Source: Radiobacillus kanasensis
Lineage (GTDB): Bacteria > Bacillota > Bacilli > Bacillales > Amphibacillaceae
Length of the DNA stretch: 64,000 nt
NCBI RefSeq assembly: GCF_021049245.1
Contig: NZ_CP088020.1
Span: 3,292,001 to 3,356,000, forward strand
Reading direction: 5' to 3'
Shown here in pieces: positions 4,458 through 54,440 of the stretch. Every line of letters begins with the position of its first letter. Within the stretch, counting starts at the first letter, position 1. The notes under the pieces are model-generated. The model was given only the letters and a program-made list of their open reading frames with translations. It searched no databases and was not told where the DNA came from. The position numbers and the translations under genes are program-made.

Positions 4458-4459
4458 AC

Positions 4460-15147: not shown

Positions 15148-15185
15148 CGTGATCCCCCCATACATAACAACCATGTATATTCTCT

Positions 15186-30469: not shown

Positions 30470-31388
30470 CTCTAATTATCTTTTTGTAATAATCCAAAAA
30501 TAGTACAAGGAAAATACTTAGTAAAAGTCCCAGCATTAGTGCTGCAAAATAATTAAATGATTCATTTGGACCGGTTTTAACTGACTCTGTATCAGAATCT
30601 AATTGCTCAATAGATAATTCATTAAATATATTTTCATTATCTTTACTAATTGAACTGATCTCCTCATATTGTGCAAGATAATCATTGTAATTTTTCACAG
30701 AATTCTGTATCTCGGAACTAGTTTGAACTACATTGACCATTTCCTCTGGAGTAAGTCCATCAATGGTATCTGTAATTTCCTCATTTATATCAATAATTTT
30801 GTTTGGACCGAACAAGTTTTCAACTACCAAAACGGAAGGCAACTTCACATTCACTTTCTTTAAATCACTTATAGCTTGGCGTACTTTACTTATCTCTTCG
30901 TCCATCTTCTCATTATAATAGCTTGCTCTATCATCTGTTTGTTCCTTCAATAGTAAGGATAATTCTTTATCTGTATTGGAAACTATACTTTGAATCACTT
31001 CTTTGTTTAATTGTTCATTGGAACCAGTTTTATTAATTAAGATACCGTTATCTGCACTTGATACTTGAAAGCTAATCATCGCTTTTAGCTCGTCTAGAGA
31101 GCTATTAAGATTCATTTCATTAATTACACTCTCCAAGACTTCATCTGAATTCATTACTTCTATAATTCCGTTTGAAGAAAATAATCGTGTAATTTGTGGG
31201 TCTAAATCTTGAACAAGTTCTTCATAACTACCTAATTCAATCTTTGTTGTAGCTCTATATGTATCGTTTAAGATAAATTTGTTAAAAACAAAGCCTAGAG
31301 CTAGAAAAAATAACGTGATTAGAACTATTAATAACTTTCCTTTCCACAAAGTGAACAGAAAATTCTTTACTTGATTACGTTCTTCCAT
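30465..31388 (-). CDS. Wzz-family chain-length regulator without kinase domain
   Basis: Membrane protein of 307 residues: first membrane segment at about 21-40 (LLIVLITLFFLALGFVF), a long charged and probably coiled-coil extracytoplasmic region, and a second membrane segment near the C terminus (AALMLGLLLSIFLVLFLDYYK). This is the Wzz topology, but neither a fused nor an adjacent tyrosine kinase is present, unlike operon 1. It may set chain length for the locus 2 polymer. GGAGG precedes the ATG. It shares a transcription unit with the TagO-like gene. Confidence 0.72.
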   Translation of the reverse strand: MEERNQVKNFLFTLWKGKLLIVLITLFFLALGFVFNKFILNDTYRATTKIELGSYEELVQDLDPQITRLFSSNGIIEVMNSDEVLESVINEMNLNSSLDELKAMISFQVSSADNGILINKTGSNEQLNKEVIQSIVSNTDKELSLLLKEQTDDRASYYNEKMDEEISKVRQAISDLKKVNVKLPSVLVVENLFGPNKIIDINEEITDTIDGLTPEEMVNVVQTSSEIQNSVKNYNDYLAQYEEISSISKDNENIFNELSIEQLDSDTESVKTGPNESFNYFAALMLGLLLSIFLVLFLDYYKKIIRD

Positions 31389-33982: not shown

Positions 33983-36900
33983 CTATTCTTTAATCTCGAA
34001 CATTAAAGTATTGTAGCTGTCATAACTTCTAGTTGAATTTATATCTCTTACATGAACAACCAACTTATAAGTTCCAACTTGATTTGGAAGCCAGTTAGTT
34101 GAAGAACTGGCTCCATAATCACGTATCAATGTCCATTCACCTGTCTCAGTGTTTTCTACCCAGAATTTATACTCCAAGCTAGTTCCTCCGCTTGCTTCTG
34201 CACTTACATTTATACTAGTTCCTATCACTTGTGGACTACTCTTATCAGCCGTAACTTTATTTACTGTTACTTTTCCTGGCTGAGAAATTACATAGGTTAA
34301 AGTTTGGTATGCTTCATAGCTCTTGGTTGAACCTACATTCCTAACATGCACTACTAGCTTGTAGTTTGCCGCTTCACTTGGTGTCCAACTAGTAGTTGCA
34401 CTGCTTCCATAATTTCGTATGAGTGTCCATTTTCCTGTATCCGTATTTTCCGCCCAGAATTTATACTCCAAGCTAGTTCCTCCGCTTGCTTCTGCACTTA
34501 CATTTATACTAGTTCCTGTAACTTGTGGACTGCTCTTATCAGTTGTAACTTTATTTATTGTTATTTTTCCTGGTTGAGAAATTACATAGGATAAAGTTTG
34601 GTATGCTTCATAGCTCTTGGTTGAACCTACATTCCTAACATGCACTACCAGCTTGTAGTTTGCCGCTTCACTTGGTGTCCAACTAGTAGTTGCACTGCTT
34701 CCGTAATTTCGTATGAGTGTCCATTTTCCTGTATCCGTATTTTCCGCCCAGAATTTATACTCCAAGCTAGTTCCTCCGCTTGCTTCTGCACTTACATTTA
34801 TATTGGTTCCTGCTTCTTGCGGACTAGCTTTGTCCACCGTTAGATTACTTACATTGATTTTTGGCGGCTCTGATATTTTATAATTTAGTGTCCGATAGGC
34901 ATCATAGCTTTTGGAAGATCCAACTTCTCTCGCATGTACTACTAATTTATAGTCACCTGCTACGTTTGGTGTCCAATTAGCTGTAGCACTACTTCCATAA
35001 TTTCTAATTAATGTCCATTTACCAGTACTCGTGTTTTCTGCCCAGAACTTATACTCTAATGTTGTTTCACCAGTGGCCACTGCGGTTACATTTATATTGC
35101 TTCCTGTTACTTGCGGACTAACCTTGTCCACCGTTATTTCACTTATATTGACTCTTGGTGGCTCTGATATTTTATAATCCAGAGTTCGATAGGCATCATA
35201 ACTTTTTGTTGAACCTACTTCTCTCACATGCACTACTAGCTTATAGTTACCTGATTCACTAGGTAGCCAACTTATTGTGGAGCTAGAACTATAGTCATTG
35301 AGTAATATCCATTGGTTTGTATCAATGTTTTGTGCCCAGAATTTATATTCTAGTGAAGTGCTACCACTTGCTGATGCACTGATATTAATTGTTTGGCCCA
35401 ACTCTTGTGGACTAGTTTTTGACGTTGATAATCCATCTACTTTAATCGGCTCATTAATGACGAACTCTTTCGTAATGTAATCATCATAATCTTTCGATGA
35501 ATATTTATCTTTCACATGAACATTCAAGGTGTAATTACCACTAGTATCTGGTGTCCAATCAACATAACTTTTCCCAGAGTAGTTTTGAATCAGCTTCCAT
35601 TCTCCTTGATATCCAACCCAAAATTGATAGATTAATTGAGAACCGCCACTAGCATTTGCAGTGACCCTAATCGTATCTTTAGCGTTTTGCGGGGAAGATA
35701 AATCCGTTGTAATACTGCTAACCGATGCTTCAGCTGGAATTTTTCCTGTTAAATTGATTGTTGTACCTTGATAATAAAAGCCAAGAATATCTCGATAATT
35801 CTTTCCATGGTTTTGAGCCATATTTTGTGCTCCATGTTGACTCATTCCAACCGCGTGCCCAAAACCACTTCCCTCTATTTTATATTGACTCCCCGTATCT
35901 GTAACACTATTAATATTGATACTCTTCATTTTGGCCCAACCAAACATAGACCTAAAAGTAGTCATATTGAACGTAAAAATATTTTGAAAACGTGCTATAT
36001 CGTTTGAAGAATTTTTTCGATACTCTCCAGTTACCTTGTTTCTCAACATATATTGTATTTCAATATTTCCTTTATAAACAATATCTGATTGCATTGTGTT
36101 GTTAATAAGGTCTAAGCCGAATATTTTTGTGATTTTCAGTTCATAATCTTTACTAATGCCATTAGTGTATAAATTTGATTTTAAATTGTTTATGAAACTT
36201 GAATCAGCTTCACTAACTGAACTCCACCAATCCTGAGGTCTTTTAAGGTCCTTAGTAGATACGTCAATTTGTGTTTCTGCTAGATAAAAACTCCAATTGT
36301 TATATGAATTACCACTAAAACTATCGTACGGATCTAGTTTAGTAGTTAGATAGGGATGGTATTCATCATTACTCCATCCATAATTCTCATTTGAAATAAT
36401 CTTGCCACCGTTTGAGGATGAGTAAACCGCTGAAATCGGGTTACCATTATAATTTATAATTTGACCTCTTGTTGATTCAACGGCTTTAATAACATTTTGA
36501 TAAGTAGAACCAGTTACTATACCAGCATATACTTGATCATTCTGCGAATCTATAATAGTTTTAGTTGATGAATCGACAAAAGGCAAAGCATGGGTTCGTG
36601 CTGCCAAAGTTTGTGCTTTAAGTGCTTCAATATCCCAACTTGGATACATTTCAAAACCAACTACGCCCTTTAAGTAGTCCTCGATAAATAATTTGTTGTA
36701 AGGACGTACATAGCTTCCTTCTTTTTTAAAATTCATTTCTCCATAATAAGACAAAATTTTACCCTGTCTTACTGAATCATGAACGGTAACAAAGCTACTA
36801 TCACTGTACAGGGTTGGATAAATGTTAATACCTGATGTTGACTTAGTAATGGTAGTAGAACCATCCATAAGAATAACATCACCACTTTGAATTTTTACTG

Positions 36901-37105
36901 TGTATATCCTTCCTTCTTTTAACGCATAATTCAAGCCTGTTATTTTATATGTTCCAGAAACTTCAAAGTCAATACTGCTTTTATTTCCAATATGGTTATA
37001 GAGCTTTACTGAGATAAGACCAGGGCTTGCTGCCGACACTTTTTCTGAGTTTGTAAATACTAGAAATACAAATAGCACAGAAAAAAACACTATTATTTTT
37101 TTCAT
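33983..37105 (-). CDS. SpoIID/LytB-domain protein with six C-terminal repeats
   Basis: Secreted protein of 1040 residues. After the signal peptide, residues about 100-455 form a SpoIID/LytB domain: EDYLKGVVGFEMYPSWDIEAL (with the Glu known as catalytic in SpoIID), KAQTLAARTHA, NDQVYAGI, and GSGFGHAVGMSQHGAQNMA near its end. Family knowledge: SpoIID is a lytic transglycosylase acting after an amidase, LytB a LytC modifier. Six repeats of 93-98 residues follow (from about 461) with SPQ, LEYKFWAEN, WTLIRNYGSS and YKLVVHVR motifs, the same family as in the amidase. Repeats 4 and 5 are almost identical even in DNA. A GGGGGG site precedes the ATG. Confidence 0.88.
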   Translation of the reverse strand: MKKIIVFFSVLFVFLVFTNSEKVSAASPGLISVKLYNHIGNKSSIDFEVSGTYKITGLNYALKEGRIYTVKIQSGDVILMDGSTTITKSTSGINIYPTLYSDSSFVTVHDSVRQGKILSYYGEMNFKKEGSYVRPYNKLFIEDYLKGVVGFEMYPSWDIEALKAQTLAARTHALPFVDSSTKTIIDSQNDQVYAGIVTGSTYQNVIKAVESTRGQIINYNGNPISAVYSSSNGGKIISNENYGWSNDEYHPYLTTKLDPYDSFSGNSYNNWSFYLAETQIDVSTKDLKRPQDWWSSVSEADSSFINNLKSNLYTNGISKDYELKITKIFGLDLINNTMQSDIVYKGNIEIQYMLRNKVTGEYRKNSSNDIARFQNIFTFNMTTFRSMFGWAKMKSININSVTDTGSQYKIEGSGFGHAVGMSQHGAQNMAQNHGKNYRDILGFYYQGTTINLTGKIPAEASVSSITTDLSSPQNAKDTIRVTANASGGSQLIYQFWVGYQGEWKLIQNYSGKSYVDWTPDTSGNYTLNVHVKDKYSSKDYDDYITKEFVINEPIKVDGLSTSKTSPQELGQTINISASASGSTSLEYKFWAQNIDTNQWILLNDYSSSSTISWLPSESGNYKLVVHVREVGSTKSYDAYRTLDYKISEPPRVNISEITVDKVSPQVTGSNINVTAVATGETTLEYKFWAENTSTGKWTLIRNYGSSATANWTPNVAGDYKLVVHAREVGSSKSYDAYRTLNYKISEPPKINVSNLTVDKASPQEAGTNINVSAEASGGTSLEYKFWAENTDTGKWTLIRNYGSSATTSWTPSEAANYKLVVHVRNVGSTKSYEAYQTLSYVISQPGKITINKVTTDKSSPQVTGTSINVSAEASGGTSLEYKFWAENTDTGKWTLIRNYGSSATTSWTPSEAANYKLVVHVRNVGSTKSYEAYQTLTYVISQPGKVTVNKVTADKSSPQVIGTSINVSAEASGGTSLEYKFWVENTETGEWTLIRDYGASSSTNWLPNQVGTYKLVVHVRDINSTRSYDSYNTLMFEIKE
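34265..34852 (-). repeat. Near-identical 294-bp tandem coding repeat inside the SpoIID-like gene
   Basis: Repeats 4 and 5 of the protein are offset by exactly 294 bases (98 codons). Across a stretch of roughly 200 bases I count only two differences, both silent. Part of repeat 6 (34159-34217) is also identical to the matching part of repeat 5. Other repeats of the gene are much more diverged, so this indicates recent duplication or gene conversion. Confidence 0.88.
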
Positions 37106-41486: not shown

Positions 41487-41521
41487 TTGAGTACCTCACT
41501 TAATGAACGTCTTACATCTAA

Positions 41522-41899: not shown

Positions 41900-41909
41900 G
41901 AAAAGCACC

Positions 41910-42883: not shown

Positions 42884-43903
42884 TTACAATGGAATTGTGT
42901 TAACTAACCGTGAATAGTAGTCATAAATATTAATAATTTCTGCTTTACTTTTTTCAGGTAGTTGCTCCTTAGGAATTATAAAGGAGTCTATCTGTATTTG
43001 CTCTCCAAAAATGTTATAGATATTTCCTAAAGCCGATGAATAAAAAGAAGCGACTACATTAGGAATTTCCTTTTTTATCATTAAATAAAGTTCAATAGAG
43101 GCATCTGGTCTTAATATTTCAAATCCGAGTTTATCATATACTTTAATCCATTCTTCATTTTCTGCTCTATGTGGAACATACACTATTTTCTTAACTTCAG
43201 AGTAATGTTTTTTTATCTTACTTAAACAATCTATATAGACCTCAGCACTCTCTAAAATTCCTTTTTCAACTAATGGACTTCCTAAAAGCCAAACTTCCTG
43301 TAGTTTTTCCCTTTCTGAACTAATTGATTTCATATAAAGGTAATTATTTTTAGTAACCAGTAAGTTTTCACTACTTGGTAAATCGTAGACAGTGAAGAGA
43401 ACTAAATTATCCACATGTTTCTGAATGGGAACATTTCCAAGATAAACCATAGACTTAATTAGTTTTTTCAAACGATCCTTACTATCGCCATTCAAAAATT
43501 TTCGCCTTTCATTTTCAGATGTAAGCACTCTATGTATTCTCAACGAAACAGTACCATCATCTATTAACACAGTTTGTCTTGGATTAACTTTATTCACAAA
43601 ATCTCTCATCAAATCAGATCTATAGTCACCGATAAAAACTAAATCGGGATCTTTATATGTCTTATACTCTTTTTTGAGTTTTATCATTCTTGTGATCCAG
43701 CTAATTTTCCCATTACCGAACCCAATAATTTTTATCGAGTTCCAATCTGACCGATTAACCATTTTAACTATTTGTTTAACAGAATTTGGATTATCTCCAT
43801 TTAATACTAATAAATCGCACTCTGCACTTTCTAATTTATAATAGTATTTTGCTTCTAGAGAATTTAACAATTGTAGTGGAGATTCAATTATAAAAACATT
43901 CAT
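42884..43903 (-). CDS. Sialyltransferase-like enzyme (GT52/GT38-related), candidate nonulosonic acid transferase
   Basis: Protein of 339 residues starting MNVFIIESPLQLLNSLEA, a start common among GT52-type enzymes and polysialyltransferases. Bacterial sialyltransferases share a D/E-D/E-G motif, an HP motif and a Ser/Thr pair. Here I see LIDDGT (Asp115-Asp116-Gly117), YVPHRAE (His245-Arg246, so HR instead of HP) and FYSSALGN (Ser289-Ser290). It lies directly after the complete nonulosonic acid gene set. I infer that it moves legionaminic acid from CMP to the repeat unit. No signal peptide or membrane segment is visible, so it should act in the cytoplasm. Confidence 0.7.
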   Translation of the reverse strand: MNVFIIESPLQLLNSLEAKYYYKLESAECDLLVLNGDNPNSVKQIVKMVNRSDWNSIKIIGFGNGKISWITRMIKLKKEYKTYKDPDLVFIGDYRSDLMRDFVNKVNPRQTVLIDDGTVSLRIHRVLTSENERRKFLNGDSKDRLKKLIKSMVYLGNVPIQKHVDNLVLFTVYDLPSSENLLVTKNNYLYMKSISSEREKLQEVWLLGSPLVEKGILESAEVYIDCLSKIKKHYSEVKKIVYVPHRAENEEWIKVYDKLGFEILRPDASIELYLMIKKEIPNVVASFYSSALGNIYNIFGEQIQIDSFIIPKEQLPEKSKAEIINIYDYYSRLVNTIPL

Positions 43904-43938
43904 TATAAATTACTCCTTTATTAAAAAATAAAGTGTGA

Positions 43939-45087
43939 CTAGCACACTTTATTTTTTAGCACTGTATTTAGTGTATTAATCACTTTATCTTGTTGTTCTT
44001 CTGTCATGCTTGAACCAGATGGTAAACAAACTCCATTTTCAAATAAGAAATCAGAAACACTTATGTCGGAATGTTTATAATATTTAACTCCATCAAATAG
44101 GGGTTGCAAATGTAACGGTTTCCACACCGGTCTACCCTCGATGTTGTGTTTGTTTAATTCATCTAAAACAGTTTTTGAATCAGCAATTGCTTCTTTTGGA
44201 TTAATAACTAACGTCGTTAACCACCTTGTTGAAAAGTATCCCTCGGGCTCTGGCATAAACTCTACTCCAGGTAGATGGGATAAAGATCGACTGTATTTAT
44301 CAAAGATTTCTCTTCTTCTTGCGACTCTTTCATCTAACACTTCTAACTGAGCTCTACCAACTCCAGCTAAGATATTACTTAAACGATAATTATATCCGGT
44401 GGTGCTATGTTGATAGTGGGGTGCTTCGTCTCTTGCTTGTGTTGCTAAAAAACGAGCTTTGTTCATAAGCTCTTCATCGTCAGAAACTATCATACCACCT
44501 CCAGAAGTAGTGATGATTTTATTTCCGTTAAACGAAAAGATACTTATTTTACCAAACGAACCACTTCTTCTACCATTATATTTTGCACCAAGTGATTCAG
44601 CCGCATCTTCGATCATAGGTACATTATAAATGTCGCATAACTCCATAATCCGATCCATATCTGCACTTTGTCCGTATAAGTTTACAACAACTATGGCTTT
44701 TGGGAGTGAGTTATTAGCTTTCGCTTCTTCCAGAGCTCTTTCAAGTGCATTTGGAGACATATTCCACGTTTCAGGATTTGAATCTATAAATACGGGTGTT
44801 GCACCTGCATATAATATAGGATTAGCGCTTGCAACAAATGTCAAGCTTGAGCAAAAAACTATATCTCCCTGTTTAATACCTAATAGTTGTAACGCAAGGT
44901 GAATACCAGCCGTACCTGAACTCACAGCTGCAGCACTTTTAACTCCTACATATTCAGCAACTTGTTTCTCAAACGCATCTACGTTTGGACCTAATGGTGC
45001 AATCCAGTTCGTTTCAAAAGCGTGATTAATATACTTTTGTTCATTTCCACTCATATGTGGGGGAGATAATAATATTCTTTCTGTCAT
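43939..45087 (-). CDS. UDP-4-keto-6-deoxy-GlcNAc aminotransferase (LegC/EpsN/PglE-like)
   Basis: PLP-dependent DegT-family aminotransferase of 382 residues. From memory it is strikingly like B. subtilis EpsN: LLSPPHMSGNEQKYI, NWIAPLGPNVDAFE, VSSGTAGIHLAL, IEDAAESLGA, then SFNGNKIITTSGGGM with the PLP-binding Lys, and LPSGSSMTEEQQ near the end. EpsN/PglE aminate the 4-keto sugar to UDP-4-amino-4,6-dideoxy-GlcNAc. Here this is step two of legionaminic acid synthesis, between the 4,6-dehydratase and the adjacent acetyltransferase. Only one base separates it from the acetyltransferase gene. Confidence 0.9.
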   Translation of the reverse strand: MTERILLSPPHMSGNEQKYINHAFETNWIAPLGPNVDAFEKQVAEYVGVKSAAAVSSGTAGIHLALQLLGIKQGDIVFCSSLTFVASANPILYAGATPVFIDSNPETWNMSPNALERALEEAKANNSLPKAIVVVNLYGQSADMDRIMELCDIYNVPMIEDAAESLGAKYNGRRSGSFGKISIFSFNGNKIITTSGGGMIVSDDEELMNKARFLATQARDEAPHYQHSTTGYNYRLSNILAGVGRAQLEVLDERVARRREIFDKYSRSLSHLPGVEFMPEPEGYFSTRWLTTLVINPKEAIADSKTVLDELNKHNIEGRPVWKPLHLQPLFDGVKYYKHSDISVSDFLFENGVCLPSGSSMTEEQQDKVINTLNTVLKNKVC

Positions 45088-45088
45088 C

Positions 45089-45715
45089 TTAAATCAGCCT
45101 CTTTTTAATTATTTTAACAGGAACACCGACTGCTACCACATGGTCATCGATATTTCTTATAACTACAGAACCTCCACCTACTACTGTTCTTTCACCAATC
45201 ACAATGCCTTGGATGACATTACTTCCAATACCAATGTGTGTTCCCATCCTGATTTTCACATTCCCCGCAAGATGAACACCCGGGGAAATATGTACATAAT
45301 CTCCAATATCACAATCATGATCTACTGTAGAACCCGTATTTAAAATCGCATGATTTCCTATTTTAGAAGAATGATTTACAACTACACTCGGCATAATTAC
45401 GGTCCCAACTCCTACTTGAACATTAGAACCTAATTGTGCAGATGGATGGATGGCTTCCCCAAAACTTATATTAAATGGATATAAGTTTTTAAGTATTTTT
45501 TCGCGTAACTCATTATTGCCAATTGTAATTAAGTATTTGGCTGAAGGATGTGCCTTATTTATCCTGTCCATATCTTCAATTTTACCTAATATAGGATAAT
45601 TCAAAAAGGAATCCTCAGCGTTATCATCAACAAATCCAATTATAGATTTGTTTTGTGCAATCAATATATCTACCACTACTTTTGAATGTCCACCCGCACC
45701 AATCAGAATATACAC
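45089..45715 (-). CDS. NeuD/LegH/EpsM-family sugar O/N-acetyltransferase
   Basis: Acetyltransferase of 208 residues. N-terminal Rossmann-like IGAGGHSKVVVDIL binds the nucleotide sugar; the C-terminal half is a left-handed beta-helix with hexads such as LGSNVQVG, IGNHAILN, IGDYVHISPG and IGERTVVGGGSVV. DHDCDIGDYVHI holds the catalytic His of the PglD family. Adjacent to an EpsN-like aminotransferase it most likely N-acetylates the 4-amino group to give UDP-diacetylbacillosamine (step three). A NeuD-type O-acetyltransferase role is the alternative. Confidence 0.86.
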   Translation of the reverse strand: MYILIGAGGHSKVVVDILIAQNKSIIGFVDDNAEDSFLNYPILGKIEDMDRINKAHPSAKYLITIGNNELREKILKNLYPFNISFGEAIHPSAQLGSNVQVGVGTVIMPSVVVNHSSKIGNHAILNTGSTVDHDCDIGDYVHISPGVHLAGNVKIRMGTHIGIGSNVIQGIVIGERTVVGGGSVVIRNIDDHVVAVGVPVKIIKKRLI

Positions 45716-45726
45716 TTTTAAAACCC

Positions 45727-46893
45727 CTAATAAGTAATTACTTTTTTTATCAATCTGTCTGAATAACTAGTTTCTAAAAGCACCTGCACAATTTTTTCAC
45801 TGGCTGTACCGTTACCATAAATATTAGAAACTTCGAGAAGCTCTTCCCGAAATTCTGATGATAGGGCCTTTTCCATTCCACTTTTAATATCCGATTTATT
45901 TAGTGAAACGTCTATTACATTCTGTGGCTTCTCCCTACCATTTTGTCTATCCCCAATATTCACCACAGGGATATGAAACGAAGCTGCTTCAATTATTCCA
46001 GATGAGGAATTGCCGACAAGGGCCAAAGAGTTCTTTAATACCGTTAAATATTCTAAAGGGCTAAAGTTTGTCACAATTGTAAATTTATCATTTTCCCTAA
46101 AACTGTTATTATATTGTTCTATAATTTTATCTGTGCCTGCATCCGAATTAGGCAAAATAATGATTACATTTTTATTTGATTCCTTCAACACTTCTATACA
46201 TGTGTGAATTTGACTTTCAATGTTGTTGAACTCGGTAGATACAGGATGGAACACAAAAAGGATATATCCTTCATCTGAATTGAAATTTATCTGATATTGA
46301 TGGAATACATTGTTAATATCAGGCAATTTGGTTTTTAGGATTGTATCAATTCTAGGTGCTCCTACTTCATGAATTCTCCATGCATCCTCGCCTAATTTAT
46401 GAATACGCTCTGCACTCTTTTGTGTGGAAGCGAAATGAATATGAGAAAGCTTAGTAATAGAGTGTCTAACTGATTCATCAATAGAACCAGAAACTTCACC
46501 TCCATGAAGATGACAAATAGGTATATTTAAATGTGAAGCTGCAATTGCAGCAGCCAACATTTCTCCTCTATCACCTAGCACCAATATTATATCAGGTGTA
46601 GATTGTTCAAAAGCCTGTGTCATCCCCATTATTGCCAAAGCAATTGATCTAGCCATATTTCCACCGGTCGCACCTTGTATTAAGTTATCTACTTTGGCCA
46701 TAATTTTAAATCCATCTTTCTCAATTTCTTTATATGTACTACCATAAGTAGGAGAAAGATGCATTCCCGTTACCAATAGTTCCAGATCTAAATTATCAGA
46801 TGCTCCGATTTCCTTAAGAACCGGAAGGTATATTCCATAATCCGCTCTTGTACCTGTTACTACGCATATTTTCTTTCGGACTTTGTTCTTCAT
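45727..46893 (-). CDS. neuC: NeuC/LegG-type hydrolysing UDP-sugar 2-epimerase
   Basis: Enzyme of 388 residues with the GT-B-like UDP-GlcNAc 2-epimerase fold. Seen: VTGTRADYGIYLPVL, GMHLSPTYG, VLGDRGEMLAAAIA, HLHGGEVSGSIDESVRH and GNSSSGIIEA near the end. The TGTRADYG and HGGE(V/R)xGxxDExxRH sequences mark the hydrolysing branch (NeuC, LegG), which releases free ManNAc-type sugar and UDP. The presence of LegG rather than the unrelated PseG hydrolase favours legionaminic over pseudaminic acid. ATGA overlap with the upstream synthase gene (46890-46893). Confidence 0.91.
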   Translation of the reverse strand: MKNKVRKKICVVTGTRADYGIYLPVLKEIGASDNLDLELLVTGMHLSPTYGSTYKEIEKDGFKIMAKVDNLIQGATGGNMARSIALAIMGMTQAFEQSTPDIILVLGDRGEMLAAAIAASHLNIPICHLHGGEVSGSIDESVRHSITKLSHIHFASTQKSAERIHKLGEDAWRIHEVGAPRIDTILKTKLPDINNVFHQYQINFNSDEGYILFVFHPVSTEFNNIESQIHTCIEVLKESNKNVIIILPNSDAGTDKIIEQYNNSFRENDKFTIVTNFSPLEYLTVLKNSLALVGNSSSGIIEAASFHIPVVNIGDRQNGREKPQNVIDVSLNKSDIKSGMEKALSSEFREELLEVSNIYGNGTASEKIVQVLLETSYSDRLIKKVITY

Positions 46894-47924
46894 AGTACGT
46901 CATCCCATTCAATGACATTATCTTCGTTCACATGATTTTTAACAGCTTTCCCTAACAACTTTTCATAATGTTTAGGCTCTATTCCATTACCTGGCCTTTT
47001 TATCCCTAAATTTCCCTCTGTTAAAATGGTCCCTCGTTGCAGTTCTGTTAAAGCTACCAAGCTCTTCCTTGCAACGTTCTTCGTATCTACTTCAGAAGGT
47101 GTACATCTTTTTATGCCGTCTCCCATACTTTTCTCTACTCTTCTAATTGCAGTCACTAGATTAGATAATTCTGAAGGTATTATAGAAGCAGCATGATCTG
47201 GTCCGGGTAATTTCCTGTCCAAGGTAAAATGTTTCTCAATTATTTTGGCACCTAAAGCGACAGAACTGATTGTAATTTCATCACCTTCTGTGTGATCGGA
47301 GTAACCAACAATTTTGCCAAATGCTTTTGCCATTGTTTCCATTGCTTTTAGGTTTACTTCTTCTACTGGTGCAGGATAATTAGACGTACAGTGCAATAAA
47401 GCAAACTCACTGTGTTCTAATACATGAACCGCTTCCTCTATTTCTCCAAGGTTTGCCATACCAGTGGAAAGTAGTATTGGTACATTAAATTTAGCAATCT
47501 TTTTCAGTAAGGGTAAATTAGTCAGATCACCAGAACCAATTTTAAATGCATGAACTCCAATTTCCTTTAAAAAGTCAGCACTCTCTTCGTCAAATGGAGT
47601 AGATAAGAACTCAATATCTTGTTCATCACAATATTTTTTCAAGTATTTAAATTCCTCATGCGAAAACTCTAATTTTTTCAGCATCTCTAGCTGTGTTTCA
47701 ACTTCATCTGTGTTAACAGTCTGATACTTTGCTTTCTTAGCAGACTTTGAAACAAGCTTTTCACTTTTAAACGTTTGAAATTTTACTGCGTCTGCTCCAG
47801 ATTGTTTTGCGACTTCAATTAGTTTCTCAGCCATCTCAAGACTTCCATTGTGATTAACTCCTACTTCTGCAATAATATACGTTGGAGAATCATAACTAAT
47901 TATTTTGCTTCCAATTCTAAACAT
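46890..47924 (-). CDS. neuB: NeuB/LegI-type nonulosonic acid synthase
   Basis: Condenses phosphoenolpyruvate with a ManNAc-type sugar to form a nine-carbon acid. Protein of 344 residues: TIM-barrel part with IIAEVGVNHNGSLEMA, AVKFQTFKSEKLVS, STPFDEESADFL, LSTGMANLGEIEEA and HCTSNYPAP; C-terminal SAF (antifreeze-like) domain with ARKSLVAL and NLGIKRPGNGI. I use the ATG at 47924 (GGGGGA eight bases upstream); a GTG one codon earlier is possible. It overlaps the cytidylyltransferase gene by eight bases. In this operon the sugar is inferred to be 2,4-diacetamido-2,4,6-trideoxymannose. Confidence 0.93.
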   Translation of the reverse strand: MFRIGSKIISYDSPTYIIAEVGVNHNGSLEMAEKLIEVAKQSGADAVKFQTFKSEKLVSKSAKKAKYQTVNTDEVETQLEMLKKLEFSHEEFKYLKKYCDEQDIEFLSTPFDEESADFLKEIGVHAFKIGSGDLTNLPLLKKIAKFNVPILLSTGMANLGEIEEAVHVLEHSEFALLHCTSNYPAPVEEVNLKAMETMAKAFGKIVGYSDHTEGDEITISSVALGAKIIEKHFTLDRKLPGPDHAASIIPSELSNLVTAIRRVEKSMGDGIKRCTPSEVDTKNVARKSLVALTELQRGTILTEGNLGIKRPGNGIEPKHYEKLLGKAVKNHVNEDNVIEWDDVL

Positions 47925-48624
47925 CACTATATTCCCCCGTTATTTTTTTCATAAGAGCATCTGCAAAGAGAAAGTCCAATTCATCATCAATATCAACAGA
48001 TGTTAATTTATCCATGAAGTAAGAATAAACTTCTTTATCATAAATCTTATTATCTTTCATAATCATATCTCTTGTTGATATGTAAATAGCGCCATTAAGC
48101 TGATACAGCTTTTCAAAATCTTGCCTCCTAGTTACTTCTGTTGGAGTATCCAAAAAATCAACTAGTCTACCCTCATTAATTCTTTTTATAATATTCGGGT
48201 GGGTTTGAACTTCTGTGACACTTACGACGGGCTTTCTACCAAGATCAAGGTACTTTTGAATTGCTTCATCAATCTGCTTATTATTTCTTAATGGTGAAGT
48301 TGGTTGAAGAAGTACAACATTACTAACTTCGGCTTCATACCTGTTTTCAACATAAGAAACGGCATGAGATAAGACATCAATTGACTTCGCTGTGTCATTC
48401 GATAAATGAACTGGCCTAATGAACGGAACTTCTGCACCATATACCTTAGAGATATCCGCTATTTCTTTATCATCTGTAGATACAAACACTTTATCGATAA
48501 GTTTAGATTGTAATGCACTTTTTATTGTATATGCAATTAATGGGTAACCGTTTATTTCAAGTACATTCTTTCTCTTTAGCCCTTTGGATCCGCCTCTTGC
48601 TGGGATAATAGCAATTGTTTTCAT
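47917..48624 (-). CDS. neuA: NeuA/LegF-type CMP-nonulosonic acid cytidylyltransferase
   Basis: Activates the nine-carbon acid with CTP to the CMP donor. Protein of 235 residues: AIIPARGGSKGLKRKN at the N terminus (nucleotide-binding loop), VSTDDKEIADI, LLQPTSPLR and the late DIDDELDF with the metal-binding Asp residues, as in CMP-sialate and CMP-legionaminate synthetases. No extra C-terminal domain is present. It overlaps the synthase gene and lies 13 bases after the dehydratase gene. Confidence 0.92.
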   Translation of the reverse strand: MKTIAIIPARGGSKGLKRKNVLEINGYPLIAYTIKSALQSKLIDKVFVSTDDKEIADISKVYGAEVPFIRPVHLSNDTAKSIDVLSHAVSYVENRYEAEVSNVVLLQPTSPLRNNKQIDEAIQKYLDLGRKPVVSVTEVQTHPNIIKRINEGRLVDFLDTPTEVTRRQDFEKLYQLNGAIYISTRDMIMKDNKIYDKEVYSYFMDKLTSVDIDDELDFLFADALMKKITGEYSDV

Positions 48625-48637
48625 GTAATAAAACTCC

Positions 48638-49651
48638 TTAATTAAAAAGAAGACCAGAATTCTCTAGTAGTTTAAAAATTTCTTGTTTAGTTAATGGCTT
48701 TTCATCTTTAGAAGAGTATGCATTTCTTTCAGCTTTCTTAAATCCTTTTGGAATACTATGTTGAGTATTGTCAGATAAGTGTGAAAAGATAGCGTACATT
48801 TTATCATTATCATAAGCACGTTCAGACTCTTCGATTGTCATTAGCTCTTCGTAGATTTTTTCACCAGGTCTAATTCCTGTTTCAACAATAGAGCTACTTG
48901 ATTTGCTTTTCCGTTTATTATTAAAATCTTCAAGTAAAGTCTCAGCTAACTCGGTAATATATAACACTGGCATTTTTAACACATATATCTCTCCACCAGA
49001 TGAAAGTTCGGCGGCTTTTAAGACTAATTTAGATGCCTGTGGTATCGACATCATAAATCTGGTCATTCTCTTATCTGTAAGTGTTACGTCTCTACCTTCC
49101 TCAATTTGCCTTTTGAAGAGTGGTATAACAGATCCTCTAGAGCCCATTACGTTACCAAAACGCACACAAGAAAAAACTGTCTTTGCATTTCCTTTGTAAT
49201 GCTCTGCAGCGGATATTAGTCTTTCTGATAATAACTTGGTAGCTCCCATGGTATTTGTTGGATTCACAACTTTGTCCGTACTTATTGCAACCACTTTTTC
49301 TACATTATTATTAATTGCTGCCTCTATTACATTTTGAACACCAATGACATTTGTTTTTACAGCTTCAAAGGGGTTATATTCGCTTGACGGAACATGCTTT
49401 AGTGCAGCTGCATGAAAAATAATATCCACATCTTTTGTTGCATAATTAATTCTTTCTTTATCCCTAATATCACCGACTAAGAATCGAACATTTTTATATT
49501 CACTTAACTCTTGCTGAAATTCAAAATGCTTAGATTCATCCCTGCTAAATATTCTTATTACTTTTGGATTATGATTCAATAACTGTCTAACAATTTCACT
49601 TCCAATGGAACCTGTACCACCAGTTACCAAAATAGTCTTGTCTTTAAACAT
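48638..49651 (-). CDS. UDP-GlcNAc 4,6-dehydratase (soluble PglF/FlaA1-type SDR)
   Basis: NAD(P)-dependent extended SDR of 337 residues: ILVTGGTGSIGSEIVRQLL, VGDIRDKERI, HAAALKHVP, STDKVVNPTNTMGATK and VRFGNVMGSRGSVIP. STDKxVNPTNxMGATK is closer to the C5-retaining PglF/WbpM/LegB-like enzymes than to the inverting PseB pattern STDKACNPVNLYGATK. I therefore infer step one of the legionaminic acid route. Soluble form, without the membrane part of PglF. Start is the ATG at 49651, five bases after GAGGTGG; the GTG at 49660 lies within that site. Confidence 0.88.
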   Translation of the reverse strand: MFKDKTILVTGGTGSIGSEIVRQLLNHNPKVIRIFSRDESKHFEFQQELSEYKNVRFLVGDIRDKERINYATKDVDIIFHAAALKHVPSSEYNPFEAVKTNVIGVQNVIEAAINNNVEKVVAISTDKVVNPTNTMGATKLLSERLISAAEHYKGNAKTVFSCVRFGNVMGSRGSVIPLFKRQIEEGRDVTLTDKRMTRFMMSIPQASKLVLKAAELSSGGEIYVLKMPVLYITELAETLLEDFNNKRKSKSSSSIVETGIRPGEKIYEELMTIEESERAYDNDKMYAIFSHLSDNTQHSIPKGFKKAERNAYSSKDEKPLTKQEIFKLLENSGLLFN

Positions 49652-49668
49652 AAAAACCACCTCATCCG

Positions 49669-50859
49669 CTATTTATTTTTGTCTACTTTAAATCCTTTTA
49701 AAGAACTGAAGTTGGAGACCACGAAACCATGGATATTTTTAATGTTCTCCAATGATAAAATGATAGCTATATTTAGAAACACAGCGATAATTCGGCAAAA
49801 TGCCGGGAAGTCTAGGCTTCCCATTCCTAAAATATAAATAGACGCAGTAAATCCCCATAGAATAAAAAGTCTATTTGAAAATAACACATCAATATATTTT
49901 GAAAGCCAGAAGAAAATAGAAATAATAAATATCATGATTATCGTACCGAGTAAATATCCATACATAATCATAAAATCACCAACAAAAAAACTTGGTCCAC
50001 TGCCACCTGAATAGCCATACATGTATTCGAAAACTTGGGTGTTTATTTTATTGAAGTCAAACGGAAATTCATTGTGCATCATATCAAATCTCACTACTAA
50101 AGCAGCACCTTGTGTAGCAAAAAAACGTCTTATTCCTGAAGCAACCGCACTACCTGTTATAAATAGGTAAGCTGAAAAAGCAATAACTACCATAATCAAA
50201 AGCTTATAATTAATTTTCAATTTAAATATAAATATCCACACAAAAATATAAAAGTAAACTAAAACACCTTTATTTCCTCCTAGTATTAGTAAACCACTTA
50301 AAATAACAAAACCTACTACCTTTAAAAGATTCGAATTAATTCGCTCATAGTAGTACAAAAAGTAACTAGGTAAGACAAAGAAAATAAAAGTCGATACAGT
50401 AAAGTAAAGTGGGATAGCACCTGACATATCAGGTCGTTCAATTCTAACTCCGTTCACAAGTAAGCTATATAATGGAAAACGGTCAATAAATATTAATATA
50501 TATCCTAATATACCTAGGGTCATATAGGTTATATATAAATGAACTAGGTTGTTTGGTTCGTTTGTTAATTTTATATTCCCACCAACGACCATCATGTTTT
50601 TGAAAATAAGAAACATACTTAACAATAAAAATAGTATGGTTGAGTAAATGATATATTGTAAATAGGAATGTTCAGCAAACACCCTATAAGCTGTCCCACT
50701 AAAAACTGTGTAATAAACAGCAGGAGTATAAAATATTATAGTTGTAATAATAAAGAAAACAGAAAGAGAACGTTTTTGTTCTCCATAATATAGAATTGTT
50801 AAAACAAAAAATGTAAAAGAAATTGTTAGAATGAAAAATAAAGCAAACTCAGATAGCAT
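49669..50859 (-). CDS. Wzy-like polysaccharide polymerase of locus 2
   Basis: Integral membrane protein of about 396 residues with roughly 10-12 hydrophobic segments, a large central loop (FDFNKINTQVFEYMYGYSGG) and low sequence conservation, as expected for O-antigen/EPS polymerases. The call rests on topology and on its place between the flippase and the nonulosonic acid genes. I start at the ATG at 50859, seven bases after AAGGAG and one base after the flippase stop; a longer start 19 codons upstream overlaps the flippase gene. Confidence 0.75.
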   Translation of the reverse strand: MLSEFALFFILTISFTFFVLTILYYGEQKRSLSVFFIITTIIFYTPAVYYTVFSGTAYRVFAEHSYLQYIIYSTILFLLLSMFLIFKNMMVVGGNIKLTNEPNNLVHLYITYMTLGILGYILIFIDRFPLYSLLVNGVRIERPDMSGAIPLYFTVSTFIFFVLPSYFLYYYERINSNLLKVVGFVILSGLLILGGNKGVLVYFYIFVWIFIFKLKINYKLLIMVVIAFSAYLFITGSAVASGIRRFFATQGAALVVRFDMMHNEFPFDFNKINTQVFEYMYGYSGGSGPSFFVGDFMIMYGYLLGTIIMIFIISIFFWLSKYIDVLFSNRLFILWGFTASIYILGMGSLDFPAFCRIIAVFLNIAIILSLENIKNIHGFVVSNFSSLKGFKVDKNK

Positions 50860-50860
50860 T

Positions 50861-52159
50861 TTATTTCTCCTTAATTGTTTTATTAGTTTTAGGGGCAAAT
50901 TTCTCTGCTTTAGCAAAAGTAAACCATGGCATATAGTAGACTTTAGATGAAAGTACCCACATTGACAAAAATGCTACTAGAAAAGATATTGCCGTTGATT
51001 GAGATGCTCCAATTGGGCCATTGAATTTAATTAAAAAGTAATTAAGAATAAGGTTAATCGGAACAGCAATTAACATAACATTAAAATTCAAATGAGTTTT
51101 TTGAGCAAAGTGGACATAATTCGTCATCATTTTATACATTCCATTGAAAGCATACCCTAATGAAATCCAGAAAACAAATATGCTAGCACTAATAAATTCC
51201 GGACTTACATAGAAAGAGATTATAAAAGGAGAACATATTCCAAGTATTACAGCTCCCACAAAAACGATTATAAAATAATAGTAAGTAAATTTGACAATTT
51301 TAGCTTTTTCTCTGATTTGATCCAATTTTAGTTTATCAAATAACCATGGAACCCATGCTTTATTAAAAGCAGTAATTATAATCATTAAAATCATAGATAT
51401 TTGATATCCTACAGTATATATACCAACAGCTTCTAATCCAACCATGTTTTTAATAAAAATTCTATCGGACATATTCATTAACGCCATCCCTAGAGAAACC
51501 GGTATGAGTGGAACCCCGAACTTCAATGCATGGATAAAATAGTCCCTAGAAACTTTTCTCTTAATAAAGCCTCCATTCCCTATTATGAACAAACCAATGA
51601 TACCATATGTAATATAGGAGGTGCTTAACCCAATTACAGCTCCGTGCCATCCCAAATCAAAAAACACAACCAAGATAATAGAAAGTCCACCATTTAAAAT
51701 GGACTGGGTAATTAGAAAAATCCCAAATTTAACTGCTTTTAGCTGAACTTGGAATAAAACTAGTACGACCTGGAAGATAAATTGACTTAAACATACTAAT
51801 ATCGATAGTTGGACCCATACCCACTGTAAATCGGTAAGGAAATATATCGTATTATGAAAAAGAGCAATAAGAACACTAGTTATCCCACCACTTAACAATA
51901 GAATAGTTAATGATGTTGTTACATAAGTAGGGAAATCAATAGAATCCTTTTCATAATACTGCCTTGTTATTGCTCCATGAATGCTCAATCCTACAATTGG
52001 TCCAAAAACTAAAAGAACCATCTGAAACATAGAAAAAAGACCATATTCAGATGTTGACATATTTCTTGTGAAGATTGGTATTAATAGGAACGGGACCGCT
52101 GCATTTAGAATGCTAGAAAAAACATATATGCCTGCTGATTTAAATAACCTTTTGAACAT
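50861..52159 (-). CDS. Wzx-like polysaccharide flippase (MOP family)
   Basis: Membrane protein of 432 residues with about 12 hydrophobic segments. The N-terminal LFKSAGIYVFSSILNAAVPFL and PIFTRNMSTSEYGLF are typical of PST/Wzx exporters. It is the first gene of a 13-gene unit reaching 37.3 kb and would flip the completed repeat unit for the polymerase encoded next. AAGGTGA precedes the ATG. It differs in subfamily from the MurJ-like flippase of operon 1, which suggests separate polymers. Confidence 0.86.
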   Translation of the reverse strand: MFKRLFKSAGIYVFSSILNAAVPFLLIPIFTRNMSTSEYGLFSMFQMVLLVFGPIVGLSIHGAITRQYYEKDSIDFPTYVTTSLTILLLSGGITSVLIALFHNTIYFLTDLQWVWVQLSILVCLSQFIFQVVLVLFQVQLKAVKFGIFLITQSILNGGLSIILVVFFDLGWHGAVIGLSTSYITYGIIGLFIIGNGGFIKRKVSRDYFIHALKFGVPLIPVSLGMALMNMSDRIFIKNMVGLEAVGIYTVGYQISMILMIIITAFNKAWVPWLFDKLKLDQIREKAKIVKFTYYYFIIVFVGAVILGICSPFIISFYVSPEFISASIFVFWISLGYAFNGMYKMMTNYVHFAQKTHLNFNVMLIAVPINLILNYFLIKFNGPIGASQSTAISFLVAFLSMWVLSSKVYYMPWFTFAKAEKFAPKTNKTIKEK

Positions 52160-52306: not shown

Positions 52307-53065
52307 ATGAGTACGCCAACTGTAACAATCATCACACCAACCTACAATTCCTCAAAATTCATTCTAGAAACAATTAGATCTGTAAAGTCTCAAACGTATA
52401 ATGACTGGGAAATGATTATCATTGACGATTGTTCTATAGATAATACCGTCCAAATTGTTGAAGAACAAACTAAACAAGACAATAGAATTAAATTGATGAG
52501 GTTAGAAAAAAACTCTGGTGCCGCAGTAGCAAGGAATTCAGGAATTAAGAAAGCTAAAGGTAAATACCTTGCCTTTCTAGACAGTGATGATATGTGGCAA
52601 CCAGATAAGTTGAGCAATCAAATTACTTTTATGAAAGATAATAATTATTTATTCTCGTATAGTACCTATTCCATAATTAACGAAAATGGAAACTTTTTAA
52701 ATAAAACTATAAGAGCAACTAATTTCGTCGATTATAGAACATTACTAAAAAAGCCTGGAACTATAGGTTGTCTAACTGTTATTTTAGATCGAGAGCAAAT
52801 TGGTGATGTACTTATGCCAAATATAAAAACAAGACAGGACTTCGCTTTATGGCTAAAAATATTAAAAACAGGTATTAACGCATATGGCCTTGATGAAGAT
52901 TTAGCTCTTTATCGAAAAGTCCCTGGTTCTATATCAAGTAATAAAATTAAAGCTGCTAAAAAGAATTGGTATGTTTACCGTAATATTGAAAAATTAAATT
53001 TAATTAAATCCCTATGGTATTTTTGTAATTATGCAATCAGAGCTGTAATAAAAACATACTTCTAG
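52307..53065 (+). CDS. GT2-family glycosyltransferase on the opposite strand
   Basis: GT-A glycosyltransferase of 252 residues: VTIITPTYNSSKFI, IIDDCSIDNTVQIV, GAAVARNSGIKKAKGKYLAF and LDSDDMWQPDKL with the DxD motif, then RQDFALWLKI, the probable catalytic base region. No membrane segment. It belongs to the EPS/capsule GT2 group; donor unknown. It is the only plus-strand gene among minus-strand genes of locus 2 and has its own AAAGGAG ribosome site and a terminator. It probably contributes one sugar to the locus 2 repeat unit. Confidence 0.87.
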   Translation: MSTPTVTIITPTYNSSKFILETIRSVKSQTYNDWEMIIIDDCSIDNTVQIVEEQTKQDNRIKLMRLEKNSGAAVARNSGIKKAKGKYLAFLDSDDMWQPDKLSNQITFMKDNNYLFSYSTYSIINENGNFLNKTIRATNFVDYRTLLKKPGTIGCLTVILDREQIGDVLMPNIKTRQDFALWLKILKTGINAYGLDEDLALYRKVPGSISSNKIKAAKKNWYVYRNIEKLNLIKSLWYFCNYAIRAVIKTYF

Positions 53066-53126: not shown

Positions 53127-54440
53127 TCATTTTTTCTCCTTAATCGAAGGTCTTCCGATTGAATAATACTCAATGCCATTTTTCTTGGCTTCTTCTAAAC
53201 TAAAACAGTTTCTACCATCAAATATTATTGGATTCTTTAATTTCTTTTTATACTCCTCTAACTTATATTCTTTTATTATTTTCCAGTCTGTTAAAATGAC
53301 TGCACAATCTGCATCATTTATCGCACTTTCAATTGAATCAACAAATGTTATATCTTTAGTCAAGATCTTTCTTGCATTCTCTAAACCCACAGGATCGTAA
53401 CCGAAAACCTTTGCACCAGACTTAACTAGCTCCTCTGAGACTTGGATAGAAGGCGATTCACGCATGTCATCGGTATCAGGTTTGAATGTTAATCCTAATA
53501 AGGCAATTTTCAAACCTCTTAATCCACCAAATCGATTTATTATTTTATCTACAATTACCCTTCTTTGGTTTTTATTTACTTCTACAACACTTTGTAGAAT
53601 AGGCATTGAAAAATCTACATTTTTACCTATTGATATTAAGGCATTCGTATCTTTTGGAAAGCAGGAACCACCATATCCTATGCCTGCATTCAGAAAGCTA
53701 TTACCTATCCTCTTATCTGTTCCAATCCCACTAGCAACATCTTCTATATTCGCACCTAATTTTTCAGATAAATTCGCTATTTCATTAATAAAGCTTATTT
53801 TTGTAGCTAGAAAAGCATTCGCTGCGTATTTTATCATTTCAGCACTTCTTAGATTTGTTTTAACAATTGGAATTCCAAATGGCTTATTTATTTCTTCTAA
53901 AAGATTTAGTGCTTCCTCGCTTTCCGAGCCAATAACAATCCTGTCGCCATTAAACGTATCATATACTGCAGTACCTTGCCTTAAAAATTCTGGATTAGAT
54001 ACTACCTCAATCCTAACATCATTGACCAATTCATTATTAATTTTGTTTTTAATATACTCATTTGTACCTACTGGAACAGTACTTTTTGTAACAACAATCA
54101 CATCATTCTTTATAGTTTTTGCAATACTTTCACATGCACTATTTATAAATCTCAGGTCTGCAGAACCATCATCACCTTGTGGTGTTCCAACTCCAAGATA
54201 GATAAAATCTTTGTTAGCCAAACCTTCTTCATAACTTGTAGTGAAATTCAATCTTTGTTTTTCTAAATTTTTTTGTAGTAATTCTTCAAGACCTTCTTCG
54301 TATATTGGAGAATTACCCTTTCTTAACATATCTATCTTGTTTGGGTCAACATCTACACATGTAACTTCATGGCCAATTTCTGACAGACATACACCTGTAA
54401 CGAGCCCTACATAACCTGTACCTATTACTGCTATTTTCAT
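53127..54440 (-). CDS. UDP-glucose 6-dehydrogenase (TuaD/Ugd type)
   Basis: Converts UDP-glucose to UDP-glucuronate using NAD+. Protein of 437 residues: IAVIGTGYVGLVTGVCLSE, VSNPEFLRQGTAV, SAEMIKYAANAFLATKISFINE and GIGYGGSCFPKDTNAL with the catalytic Cys. The GGSCFPKD form is that of UDP-glucose dehydrogenases, unlike the HCIPIYPYF enzyme at 9-10 kb. It is co-transcribed with the galU copy just upstream (11-base gap), which supplies its substrate. The glucuronic acid could enter either polymer or a teichuronic acid. Confidence 0.92.
   Translation of the reverse strand: MKIAVIGTGYVGLVTGVCLSEIGHEVTCVDVDPNKIDMLRKGNSPIYEEGLEELLQKNLEKQRLNFTTSYEEGLANKDFIYLGVGTPQGDDGSADLRFINSACESIAKTIKNDVIVVTKSTVPVGTNEYIKNKINNELVNDVRIEVVSNPEFLRQGTAVYDTFNGDRIVIGSESEEALNLLEEINKPFGIPIVKTNLRSAEMIKYAANAFLATKISFINEIANLSEKLGANIEDVASGIGTDKRIGNSFLNAGIGYGGSCFPKDTNALISIGKNVDFSMPILQSVVEVNKNQRRVIVDKIINRFGGLRGLKIALLGLTFKPDTDDMRESPSIQVSEELVKSGAKVFGYDPVGLENARKILTKDITFVDSIESAINDADCAVILTDWKIIKEYKLEEYKKKLKNPIIFDGRNCFSLEEAKKNGIEYYSIGRPSIKEKK

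Follow-up and report, generated by a model that had tools for sequence, protein, structure and literature searches.

The guanosine diphosphate (GDP)-linked pathway of Campylobacter jejuni to cytidine monophosphate-activated legionaminic acid (CMP-Leg) consists of LegB, LegC, LegH, LegG, LegI, LegF and PtmE, and in Bacillus subtilis, which makes legionaminic acid (Leg) with the products of sps genes and spsM, the latter lies apart from the former. Here we describe a locus of Radiobacillus kanasensis (a stretch of 64,000 nucleotides of contig NZ_CP088020.1, which we call the window), where six genes for the probable synthesis of Leg and a gene for a sialyltransferase-like enzyme follow genes for a Wzx-type flippase and a Wzy-like polymerase. 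We consider it probable that this operon makes CMP-Leg for a Wzx/Wzy surface or wall polymer, and probably for flagellin as well.

The presence of Leg on Gram-positive surfaces is already in print, so that the Gram-positive setting itself is not new: Leg is described on B. subtilis spores by a uridine diphosphate (UDP)-linked route (PMC7439481) and in the heteropolysaccharide of Enterococcus faecium Tx16 (PMC12413058), and flagellin glycans of the Leg type are described for Clostridium botulinum (PMC13317340). The B. subtilis sps/spsM pathway is like the cassette in its UDP route, its Met-type dehydratase and its Bacillota host, but it serves the spore crust, whereas the window has a six-gene run accompanied by Wzx, Wzy, a sialyltransferase-like enzyme and a NeuC-type epimerase. 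The Tx16 polysaccharide offers another case of Leg in a Gram-positive surface polysaccharide, though both host and locus differ. The C. jejuni pathway shares the chemistry from the 4-keto sugar on, with homologous synthase and cytidylyltransferase, but the cassette misses the LegB model and has no PtmE-like gene inside. Searches of the literature for legionaminic acid with cell wall polymers and for nonulosonic acid with teichoic acids, which left most subscription papers outside, gave no such locus in titles or the first lines of abstracts. The pathway is of a known kind, and its pairing with Y_Y_Y-repeat hydrolases and this transferase family looks like the variant, new part. What the locus offers is a compact set of genes that probably make legionaminate by a UDP route in relatives of Bacillus, together with candidate nonulosonate transferases whose small family can be put to the test.

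Organisation of the cassette

Transcription of the minus strand (52159 to 42884) would read Wzx, Wzy-like polymerase, dehydratase, cytidylyltransferase, synthase, epimerase, acetyltransferase, aminotransferase and transferase, with neighbours that overlap or sit at most 35 bp apart. The seven open reading frames (ORFs) from dehydratase to transferase are all intact, lie on the minus strand between 42884 and 49660 and are spaced by -11 to +35 bp. Families were assigned with Pfam and NCBIfam models and their curated cut-offs (Table 1). Together with the ORFs, these bear out the gene identities and coordinates of a preliminary description of this DNA, whose end at 49651 is an internal ATG within the GTG-start dehydratase frame; it gave the genes in pathway order and not in map order.

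The terminator-like palindrome that precedes the transferase gene may keep expression of the transferase lower than that of the pathway genes, and no clean stem like it is present in the counterpart of Gracilibacillus kekensis (G027). A promoter scan stayed at chance level (60 found, 60.5 expected), and a terminator scan found 8 candidates where 5.1 were expected. G+C content is about 0.29 to 0.37 in the cassette region, against 0.37 to 0.44 on its right, from 56 kb on.

Table 1. Coordinates of the cassette, the wall enzymes and the neighbouring envelope genes (positions in the window)
Feature	Position	Strand	Evidence
UDP-N-acetylglucosamine (UDP-GlcNAc) 4,6-dehydratase, Met (T-x9-M-x3-K) type, putative LegB role, motif like SpsM/PglF	48638..49660	-	PF02719 371.7 bits; T128, M138, K142; tree
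CMP-nonulosonate cytidylyltransferase, putative LegF role	47917..48624	-	PF02348 (CTP_transf_3) 104.2 bits; PDB neighbours
Nonulosonate synthase, putative LegI role	46890..47927	-	NeuB 332.8 bits and SAF; TIGR03569; tree
Hydrolysing nucleotide-sugar 2-epimerase, putative LegG role, NeuC family	45727..46893	-	TIGR03568; PDB; tree
NeuD/PglD-type sugar N-acetyltransferase, putative LegH role	45089..45715	-	TIGR03570 218.1 bits; PglD_N 71.4 bits
PglE/LegC-type pyridoxal-phosphate aminotransferase	43939..45087	-	PDB 1o61/4ztc; TIGR04181
Terminator-like palindrome, T-rich arms, aminotransferase/transferase junction	43921..43959	.	17-pair stem, -16.0 kcal/mol on coding strand
GT-B nonulosonate transferase, sialyl/polysialyltransferase-like, candidate legionaminyltransferase	42884..43903	-	PF07922 (Glyco_transf_52) 32.4 bits; model; motifs
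Wzy-like polymerase	49669..50916	-	12 hydrophobic segments; position; counterparts
Wzx-type flippase	50861..52159	-	PF01943 81.3 bits; 69% identical to G027 counterpart
LytB-like SpoIID protein with Y_Y_Y repeats	33983..37105	-	SpoIID 71.6 bits; Y_Y_Y 6 stretches
LytC-like amidase with Y_Y_Y repeats	31694..33967	-	Amidase_3 162.1 bits; Y_Y_Y 5 stretches
TuaG-like GT2 glycosyltransferase, divergent from cassette	52307..53065	+	TuaG 368.7 bits, below cut-off 400; 62% in G027, also beside cassette
TuaD-like UDP-glucose 6-dehydrogenase	53127..54440	-	TuaD 560.5 bits, below cut-off 700
Nucleotidyltransferase	54452-55345		
TagO/WecA-type initiating phosphotransferase	29264..30319	-	PF00953 145.5 bits; WecA 156.6, below cut-off 326.05
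Second TagO/WecA-type copy	55506-56603		
Wzz-type chain-length protein	30465..31388	-	PF02706 46.7 bits
csbB-gtcA-yfhO-like genes (Streptococcus PgfS/PgfM-like), directly after transferase	38877-42836	-	

A probable UDP-linked route to legionaminate

As judged from the enzyme families, the pathway would start with the dehydration of UDP-GlcNAc to a 4-keto-6-deoxy sugar with C5 retained, which would then be aminated at C4 and N-acetylated to UDP-diacetylbacillosamine; a hydrolysing 2-epimerisation, condensation with phosphoenolpyruvate and activation with CMP would lead to CMP-Leg. Our best reading is that CMP-Leg is made through UDP-linked intermediates as in B. subtilis and not by the GDP route.

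Three of the proteins exceed the curated cut-offs of their models: the synthase for NeuB_NnaB (TIGR03569, 482 bits over 399.65), the epimerase for NeuC (TIGR03568, 463.4 over 235.9) and the acetyltransferase for NeuD/PglD (TIGR03570, cut-off 160.8), the last with a VDHDC stretch that aligns with perosamine N-acetyltransferase. Models for the pseudaminic acid (Pse) pathway were all missed, by the synthase (PseI, 288.5 against 340.25), the aminotransferase (PseC, 282.7 against 423.5) and the dehydratase (PseB, 357.8 against 407.75). Among solved structures, the aminotransferase scores 338 bits with 1o61 and 335 bits with 4ztc, which we take to be PglE, but only 109 with 2fn6, presumably PseC, and by these scores it would be of PglE/LegC type even though it stays under the cut-off of TIGR04181. 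The chains closest to the cytidylyltransferase are the CMP-N-acetylneuraminic acid (CMP-Neu5Ac) synthetases 6ifd and 1eyr, and those closest to the epimerase are 5xvs/5zlr (279 bits; human GNE, 218), whose molecule name mentions diacetylbacillosamine; that name carries little weight, because the title of 5xvs reads UDP-GlcNAc 2-epimerase NeuC. A preference for a legionaminic over a pseudaminic type of sugar, voiced in the preliminary description, is thereby supported by models, by the kinship of the aminotransferase and by the trees below.

The dehydratase scores 82.4 with the LegB model TIGR04180, far under the cut-off of 475, and is therefore not of the Campylobacter type; a GDP-type Leg pathway for the cassette was rejected on this failure. 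It is the one strong Polysacc_synt_2 gene found in the genome (372.1 bits, next match 68.6), and a search of the same genome found no nonulosonate synthase besides that of the cassette; a second NeuB match (30.6 bits for that family) was discarded, being a 3-deoxy-D-arabino-heptulosonate 7-phosphate synthase (295.7 bits) that also carries chorismate mutase (74.8).

In the catalytic triad of the dehydratase, T128-x9-M138-x3-K142, the middle position holds Met in all 125 rows scanned: the window enzyme, its four counterparts in other cassettes and 120 listed database entries. Two of these entries duplicate the window and G. kekensis proteins, which leaves 123 distinct rows; the five PseB rows scanned all carry Tyr. 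A review describes Met in WbpM and PglF where the catalytic Tyr would be. Mutation and complementation, as reported in PMC7439481, have established that the Met-type SpsM acts as the UDP-GlcNAc 4,6-dehydratase of the Leg pathway, and that spsM is fully replaced by pglF or by pen plus pal, while pen, pal, legB or pseB singly give no or only partial replacement. The likeness of our dehydratase to SpsM is one of motif. Its closest solved chains are 6bwc (329.8 bits), 2gn4 (262.2), 4j2o (253.1), CapE (238.6) and WlaL/PglF (176.1).

In a tree of 31 rows, neither the PseB clade (100/100) nor the CapE/WbjB clade (100/100) includes the dehydratase or any of 19 close relatives; the order in which those relatives branch is mostly unsettled, and long branches lead to Pen and to a WbpM-like row. 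Enterococcus proteins (61-64%) are among the close relatives of the dehydratase. No match of at least 60% identity to the dehydratase was obtained by tblastn against phages and plasmids. The STDKxVNPTN stretch had been taken as the mark of a retaining enzyme, and the Met triad sharpens that argument; the motif by itself is insufficient to show C5 retention, because Met is also found in the CapE and 4j2o chains, and the 2020 B. subtilis paper (PMC7439481) regards CapE and WbjB as enzymes that epimerise C5.

The synthases of the window, of G. kekensis and of three Fictibacillus species form a single clade (98/98) in a tree of 47 rows, apart from the clades of PseI and of Neisseria meningitidis NeuB, the sole Neu5Ac-synthase anchor, and so do not group with the one sialic acid synthase included. 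The closest outside row by path comes from a Leg-type cluster, while the deeper fork is unsettled. Placement of synthase and dehydratase in trees had been proposed as a check in the preliminary description; both fall outside PseI and PseB, and the legionaminic reading stands. The tree of epimerases (29 rows) holds the five cassette rows together (88/65, or 84/86 once the long row L051 is added), split (100/99) from 20 rows mostly of GDP-Leg-type clusters and on the side of GNE and two Neu-like clusters.

The sialyltransferase-like enzyme

The preliminary description had also seen a dedicated sialyltransferase-like gene behind the pathway genes, and family, fold and motifs agree. The protein passes the PF07922 cut-off (26.1 bits), and its predicted structure (predicted local distance difference test, 90.6) finds its best fold match in the bacterial polysialyltransferase 5wc6/5wcn, well above mono-sialyltransferases and at about 19% sequence identity; one of the structure comparisons listed the 50 best entries, so that absence from that list, GT52 structures included, is not informative. 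D115, D116, G117, H245 and E271 are present in 29 of 29 aligned rows. The enzyme would thus be a member of the bacterial GT-B sialyltransferase group (GT38/GT52/GT80), with which it shares, by the literature on GT38 polysialyltransferases, GT52 lipooligosaccharide sialyltransferases and GT80, the GT-B fold and the D/E-D/E-G, His and S/T-S/T motifs (here DDG, His and S/T). It differs in its low identity to the polysialyltransferase, in HR where HP is expected and in its presumed donor, CMP-Leg. Its relatives number 13 proteins at E <= 0.001, query included; a single-sequence scan of genome contigs gave no match, and a profile scan gave 28 loci, 23 of them with a nonulosonate synthase nearby.

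By position and family, this transferase would add legionaminate to an undecaprenyl-linked repeat begun by a TagO-type enzyme; Wzx would export the repeat, and Wzy would join the repeats to an anionic polymer of the teichuronic-acid type at the surface or in the wall.

Distribution among relatives

The cassette is more than a chance assembly, because its six-gene order recurs in G. kekensis and three Fictibacillus species. G. kekensis keeps the same nine-gene order from Wzx to transferase, with five intact pathway proteins 54-73% identical, and in the three Fictibacillus species Wzx, transferase and Wzy are placed ahead of the six genes. The transferase was matched in 2 of 159 genomes of the family (the window's own and G. 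kekensis) and, in an even draw across the order, in 2 of 397 (its own and Fictibacillus phosphorivorans, G392); G. kekensis appears in neither of the match lists from this draw, presumably because it was not among the genomes sampled. In the congener G118 the right flank (RND pump 90%, FabZ 89%) and both TagO genes (70% and 64%) are conserved, and between TagO and pump no cassette match was found.

Matches to the synthase at E <= 1e-30 are present in 59 of the 159 family genomes. Twenty synthase loci were fetched (L039-L058), 16 of which (L039-L054) carry GDP-type Leg genes, namely a LegB-like short-chain dehydrogenase/reductase (SDR) and a PtmE-kind nucleotidyltransferase, the latter found by BLAST in 15 and by Pfam in L046, and LegB verified by its model in two (522.4 and 542); by their gene content, these clusters seem to use the GDP route. 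L041 has an additional Pse-like cluster. Two other loci resemble those for Pse, with model matches that verify both PseB and PseI in L057 and just PseI in L058. L055 and L056 are mixed or incomplete.

Beside one Fictibacillus cassette (L089, 4317-8452), a protein with an SbsC C-terminal domain and a SecA-type protein flank the cassette, hinting at a link with an S-layer or accessory secretion.

Envelope genes and wall enzymes with Y_Y_Y repeats

The envelope genes of the window support a phosphate-free anionic wall or surface polymer. As in the tua and lytABC loci of B. subtilis, TuaD-like, TuaG-like, Wzx, Wzz, LytB-like and LytC-like genes occur together, but the TuaD and TuaG proteins are similar to the teichuronic acid enzymes and below their curated cut-offs, the wall enzymes bear Y_Y_Y repeats and Leg genes are present. 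The Wzx/Wzy envelope setting of the earlier account is supported, for Wzx by Pfam and for Wzy by hydrophobic segments, position and counterparts.

The SpoIID and amidase proteins have counterparts in G. kekensis (48% and 52%), with Y_Y_Y matches; the two Y_Y_Y architectures also occur on the flanks of the cassette in Fictibacillus L089, where the amidase domain lies at the opposite end of its protein, and L090 and L091 have the layout of L089, as judged by BLAST. Among the family genomes, the SpoIID-Y_Y_Y protein is matched over its full length only in G000 and G027, and the 25 others that match it at E <= 1e-30 do so over the first 457 residues at most. At least 10 Y_Y_Y matches are present in 2 of the 159 family genomes, both with the cassette, and the next highest number is 3. 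In the order sample, Y_Y_Y was detected at E <= 1e-5 in 37 of 397 genomes, with top counts of 12 (own genome), 11 (G392) and 9 (G161, which lacks a transferase match); G296 and G413, of the genus of G392, have one Y_Y_Y match each and no transferase match. Twenty Y_Y_Y loci were fetched, one of the own genome from outside the window, one of G392 and a further 18 that are spread over 17 of the 35 remaining genomes. These 18 showed no BLAST match (E <= 1e-6) to the SpoIID and amidase domains of the window and no synthase, and the locus of G118 holds an Amidase_3 protein with no Y_Y_Y by Pfam. Y_Y_Y repeats thus also occur in genomes without the cassette, but among the loci examined their fusion to SpoIID or amidase domains is seen only beside it, an association that amounts effectively to three lineages.

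The joint presence of Leg cassette and Y_Y_Y wall enzymes in three genera suggests a matched polymer-hydrolase module. We put forward, quite tentatively, that in this module the Leg polymer stands in for the phosphate-free polymer usual in the wall and Y_Y_Y repeats, which would recognise it, take the place of the usual wall-binding repeats; the type of polymer and the targeting of autolysins would then pass jointly from genus to genus. The locus is a natural case in which to ask whether wall-polymer chemistry and autolysin binding repeats evolve as a unit. A literature search for 'Y_Y_Y domain' with amidase, most subscription papers lying outside it, found none.

A further Y_Y_Y region of the same genome (L171, 7615-10415) consists of two ORFs of 484 and 449 amino acids, with a TAA inside the match.

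Probable role in flagellin glycosylation

The preliminary description had set the cassette apart from flagellin glycosylation, which is not supported, since a Maf-type gene lies between flagellin and flaG and the sole synthase found is that of the cassette. The genome has one such PF01973 gene (C1:2925 kb; L176, 8934-10742), for a protein of 602 amino acids that scores 143.4 bits over a cut-off of 34.6, next to Flagellin_C and FlaG genes. The congener G118, where NeuB gave no match, has five ORFs between hag and flaG, of which four encode glycosyltransferase domains and the fifth an FkbM methyltransferase, and no Maf match was found within the 400 kb fetched, a contrast that comes from one genome pair. 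Because the only nonulosonate synthase found is in the cassette and a Maf-type gene stands beside flagellin, the CMP-Leg pool probably also serves flagellin glycosylation. Maf works without Wzx and Wzy, the two uses are compatible, and one CMP-Leg pool may serve both polymer and flagella in a single cell.

Alternative explanations

Several observations weigh against a UDP-linked Leg pathway that feeds a Wzx/Wzy polymer. The aminotransferase narrowly misses the LegC model (TIGR04181, 396.3 against 420), and the dehydratase its LegB counterpart by far. The best solved match of the latter, 6bwc, is Pen of Bacillus thuringiensis, according to a review a 5,6-dehydratase with Tyr that acts in the pseudaminic pathway and needs a partner, Pal; no Pal-like gene was seen among those of the cassette, and in B. 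subtilis pen by itself fell short of restoring Leg fully (PMC7439481). The Met form also occurs in PDB chains named CapE/Cap8E and 4,6-dehydratase/5-epimerase, so that the C5 configuration of the product would not be proven by such likeness. The synthase tree does not fix the exact sister group of the cassette synthase, and the epimerase tree, while it would fit a UDP-linked substrate, leaves UDP-GlcNAc as a possible one. As for the polymer, the Wzy-like protein has no family match in Pfam or NCBIfam and was assigned from its 12 hydrophobic segments, its position and its counterparts in other cassettes (57% in G. kekensis, and 26%), and the palindrome stands between the six genes of the pathway and that of the transferase. 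The acetyltransferase gene of G. kekensis (L007, 1858-2474) runs over two frames, one for residues 1-23 and the other for 23-208, and may be broken or mis-sequenced, and PF01973, used here for Maf, is titled MptE-like in Pfam.

These points leave room for other readings, of which the least unlikely is that flagellin, an S-layer or the spore is the main destination of the sugar, Wzx and Wzy serving another polymer. The 602-residue Maf-type protein beside flagellin and the different glycosyltransferases of G118 speak for it, but Wzx, Wzy and the dedicated transferase share the tight gene run and accompany the six genes of the pathway in the other cassettes as well, and we hold it to be unlikely. 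We are still more doubtful that the transferase is processive and makes oligo- or poly-legionaminic acid in the manner of a polysialyltransferase; its best structural match and the scarcity of other transferase genes in the cassette would suit this, but processivity cannot be read from a fold, the presence of Wzx/Wzy implies that short repeats are polymerised as blocks, and relatives are found with Pse-type clusters too (L092, L097, L102, L108). Somewhat less probable again is a division of the genes between two pathways, one giving UDP-diacetylbacillosamine for a phosphoglycosyl transferase and the other ordinary CMP-Neu5Ac from epimerase, synthase and cytidylyltransferase. The epimerase scores as a NeuC equivalog and falls with NeuC and GNE on one side of its tree, and a PF02397 phosphoglycosyl transferase does exist, the only one found in the genome (8056-8700); it scores best, however, with exopolysaccharide (EPS)/WbaP/WcaJ-type models and sits in another polysaccharide locus, the genes in question are interleaved in the same order in 5 of 5 cassettes examined, and the synthase is outside the clade of its one N. 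meningitidis anchor. Pseudaminic acid as the product is highly improbable: Pen as the nearest solved dehydratase and the PseB score point to it, but the route was rejected since the PseB, PseC and PseI cut-offs are missed, the aminotransferase is far closer to PglE than to PseC, a NeuC-type epimerase stands where PseG is expected, the cassette lacks a second SDR gene, and synthase and dehydratase take other positions in their trees.

Other genes of the window

The csbB-gtcA-yfhO-like genes were not found beside the transferase in G. kekensis. Between these genes and the SpoIID gene, a minus-strand gene (37273-38829) encodes a membrane protein of 518 amino acids with no family over its cut-off, and a 28% identical protein is encoded between the two TagO genes of G. 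kekensis. An AcrB-type resistance-nodulation-division (RND) pump and a HlyD-type partner (56831-60918, minus strand), here in a Gram-positive bacterium, also lie beside the locus in G. kekensis and G118. At 1837-15174, on the minus strand, a second Wzx/Wzy-type polysaccharide locus comprises MurJ/Wzx, GT4 genes, an O-antigen polymerase, a DegT aminotransferase, a GFO/IDH oxidoreductase, an EPS-type phosphoglycosyl transferase, a nucleotide-sugar dehydrogenase, a Cps4B-like protein and Wzz, and possibly directs a diamino-uronic acid polymer.

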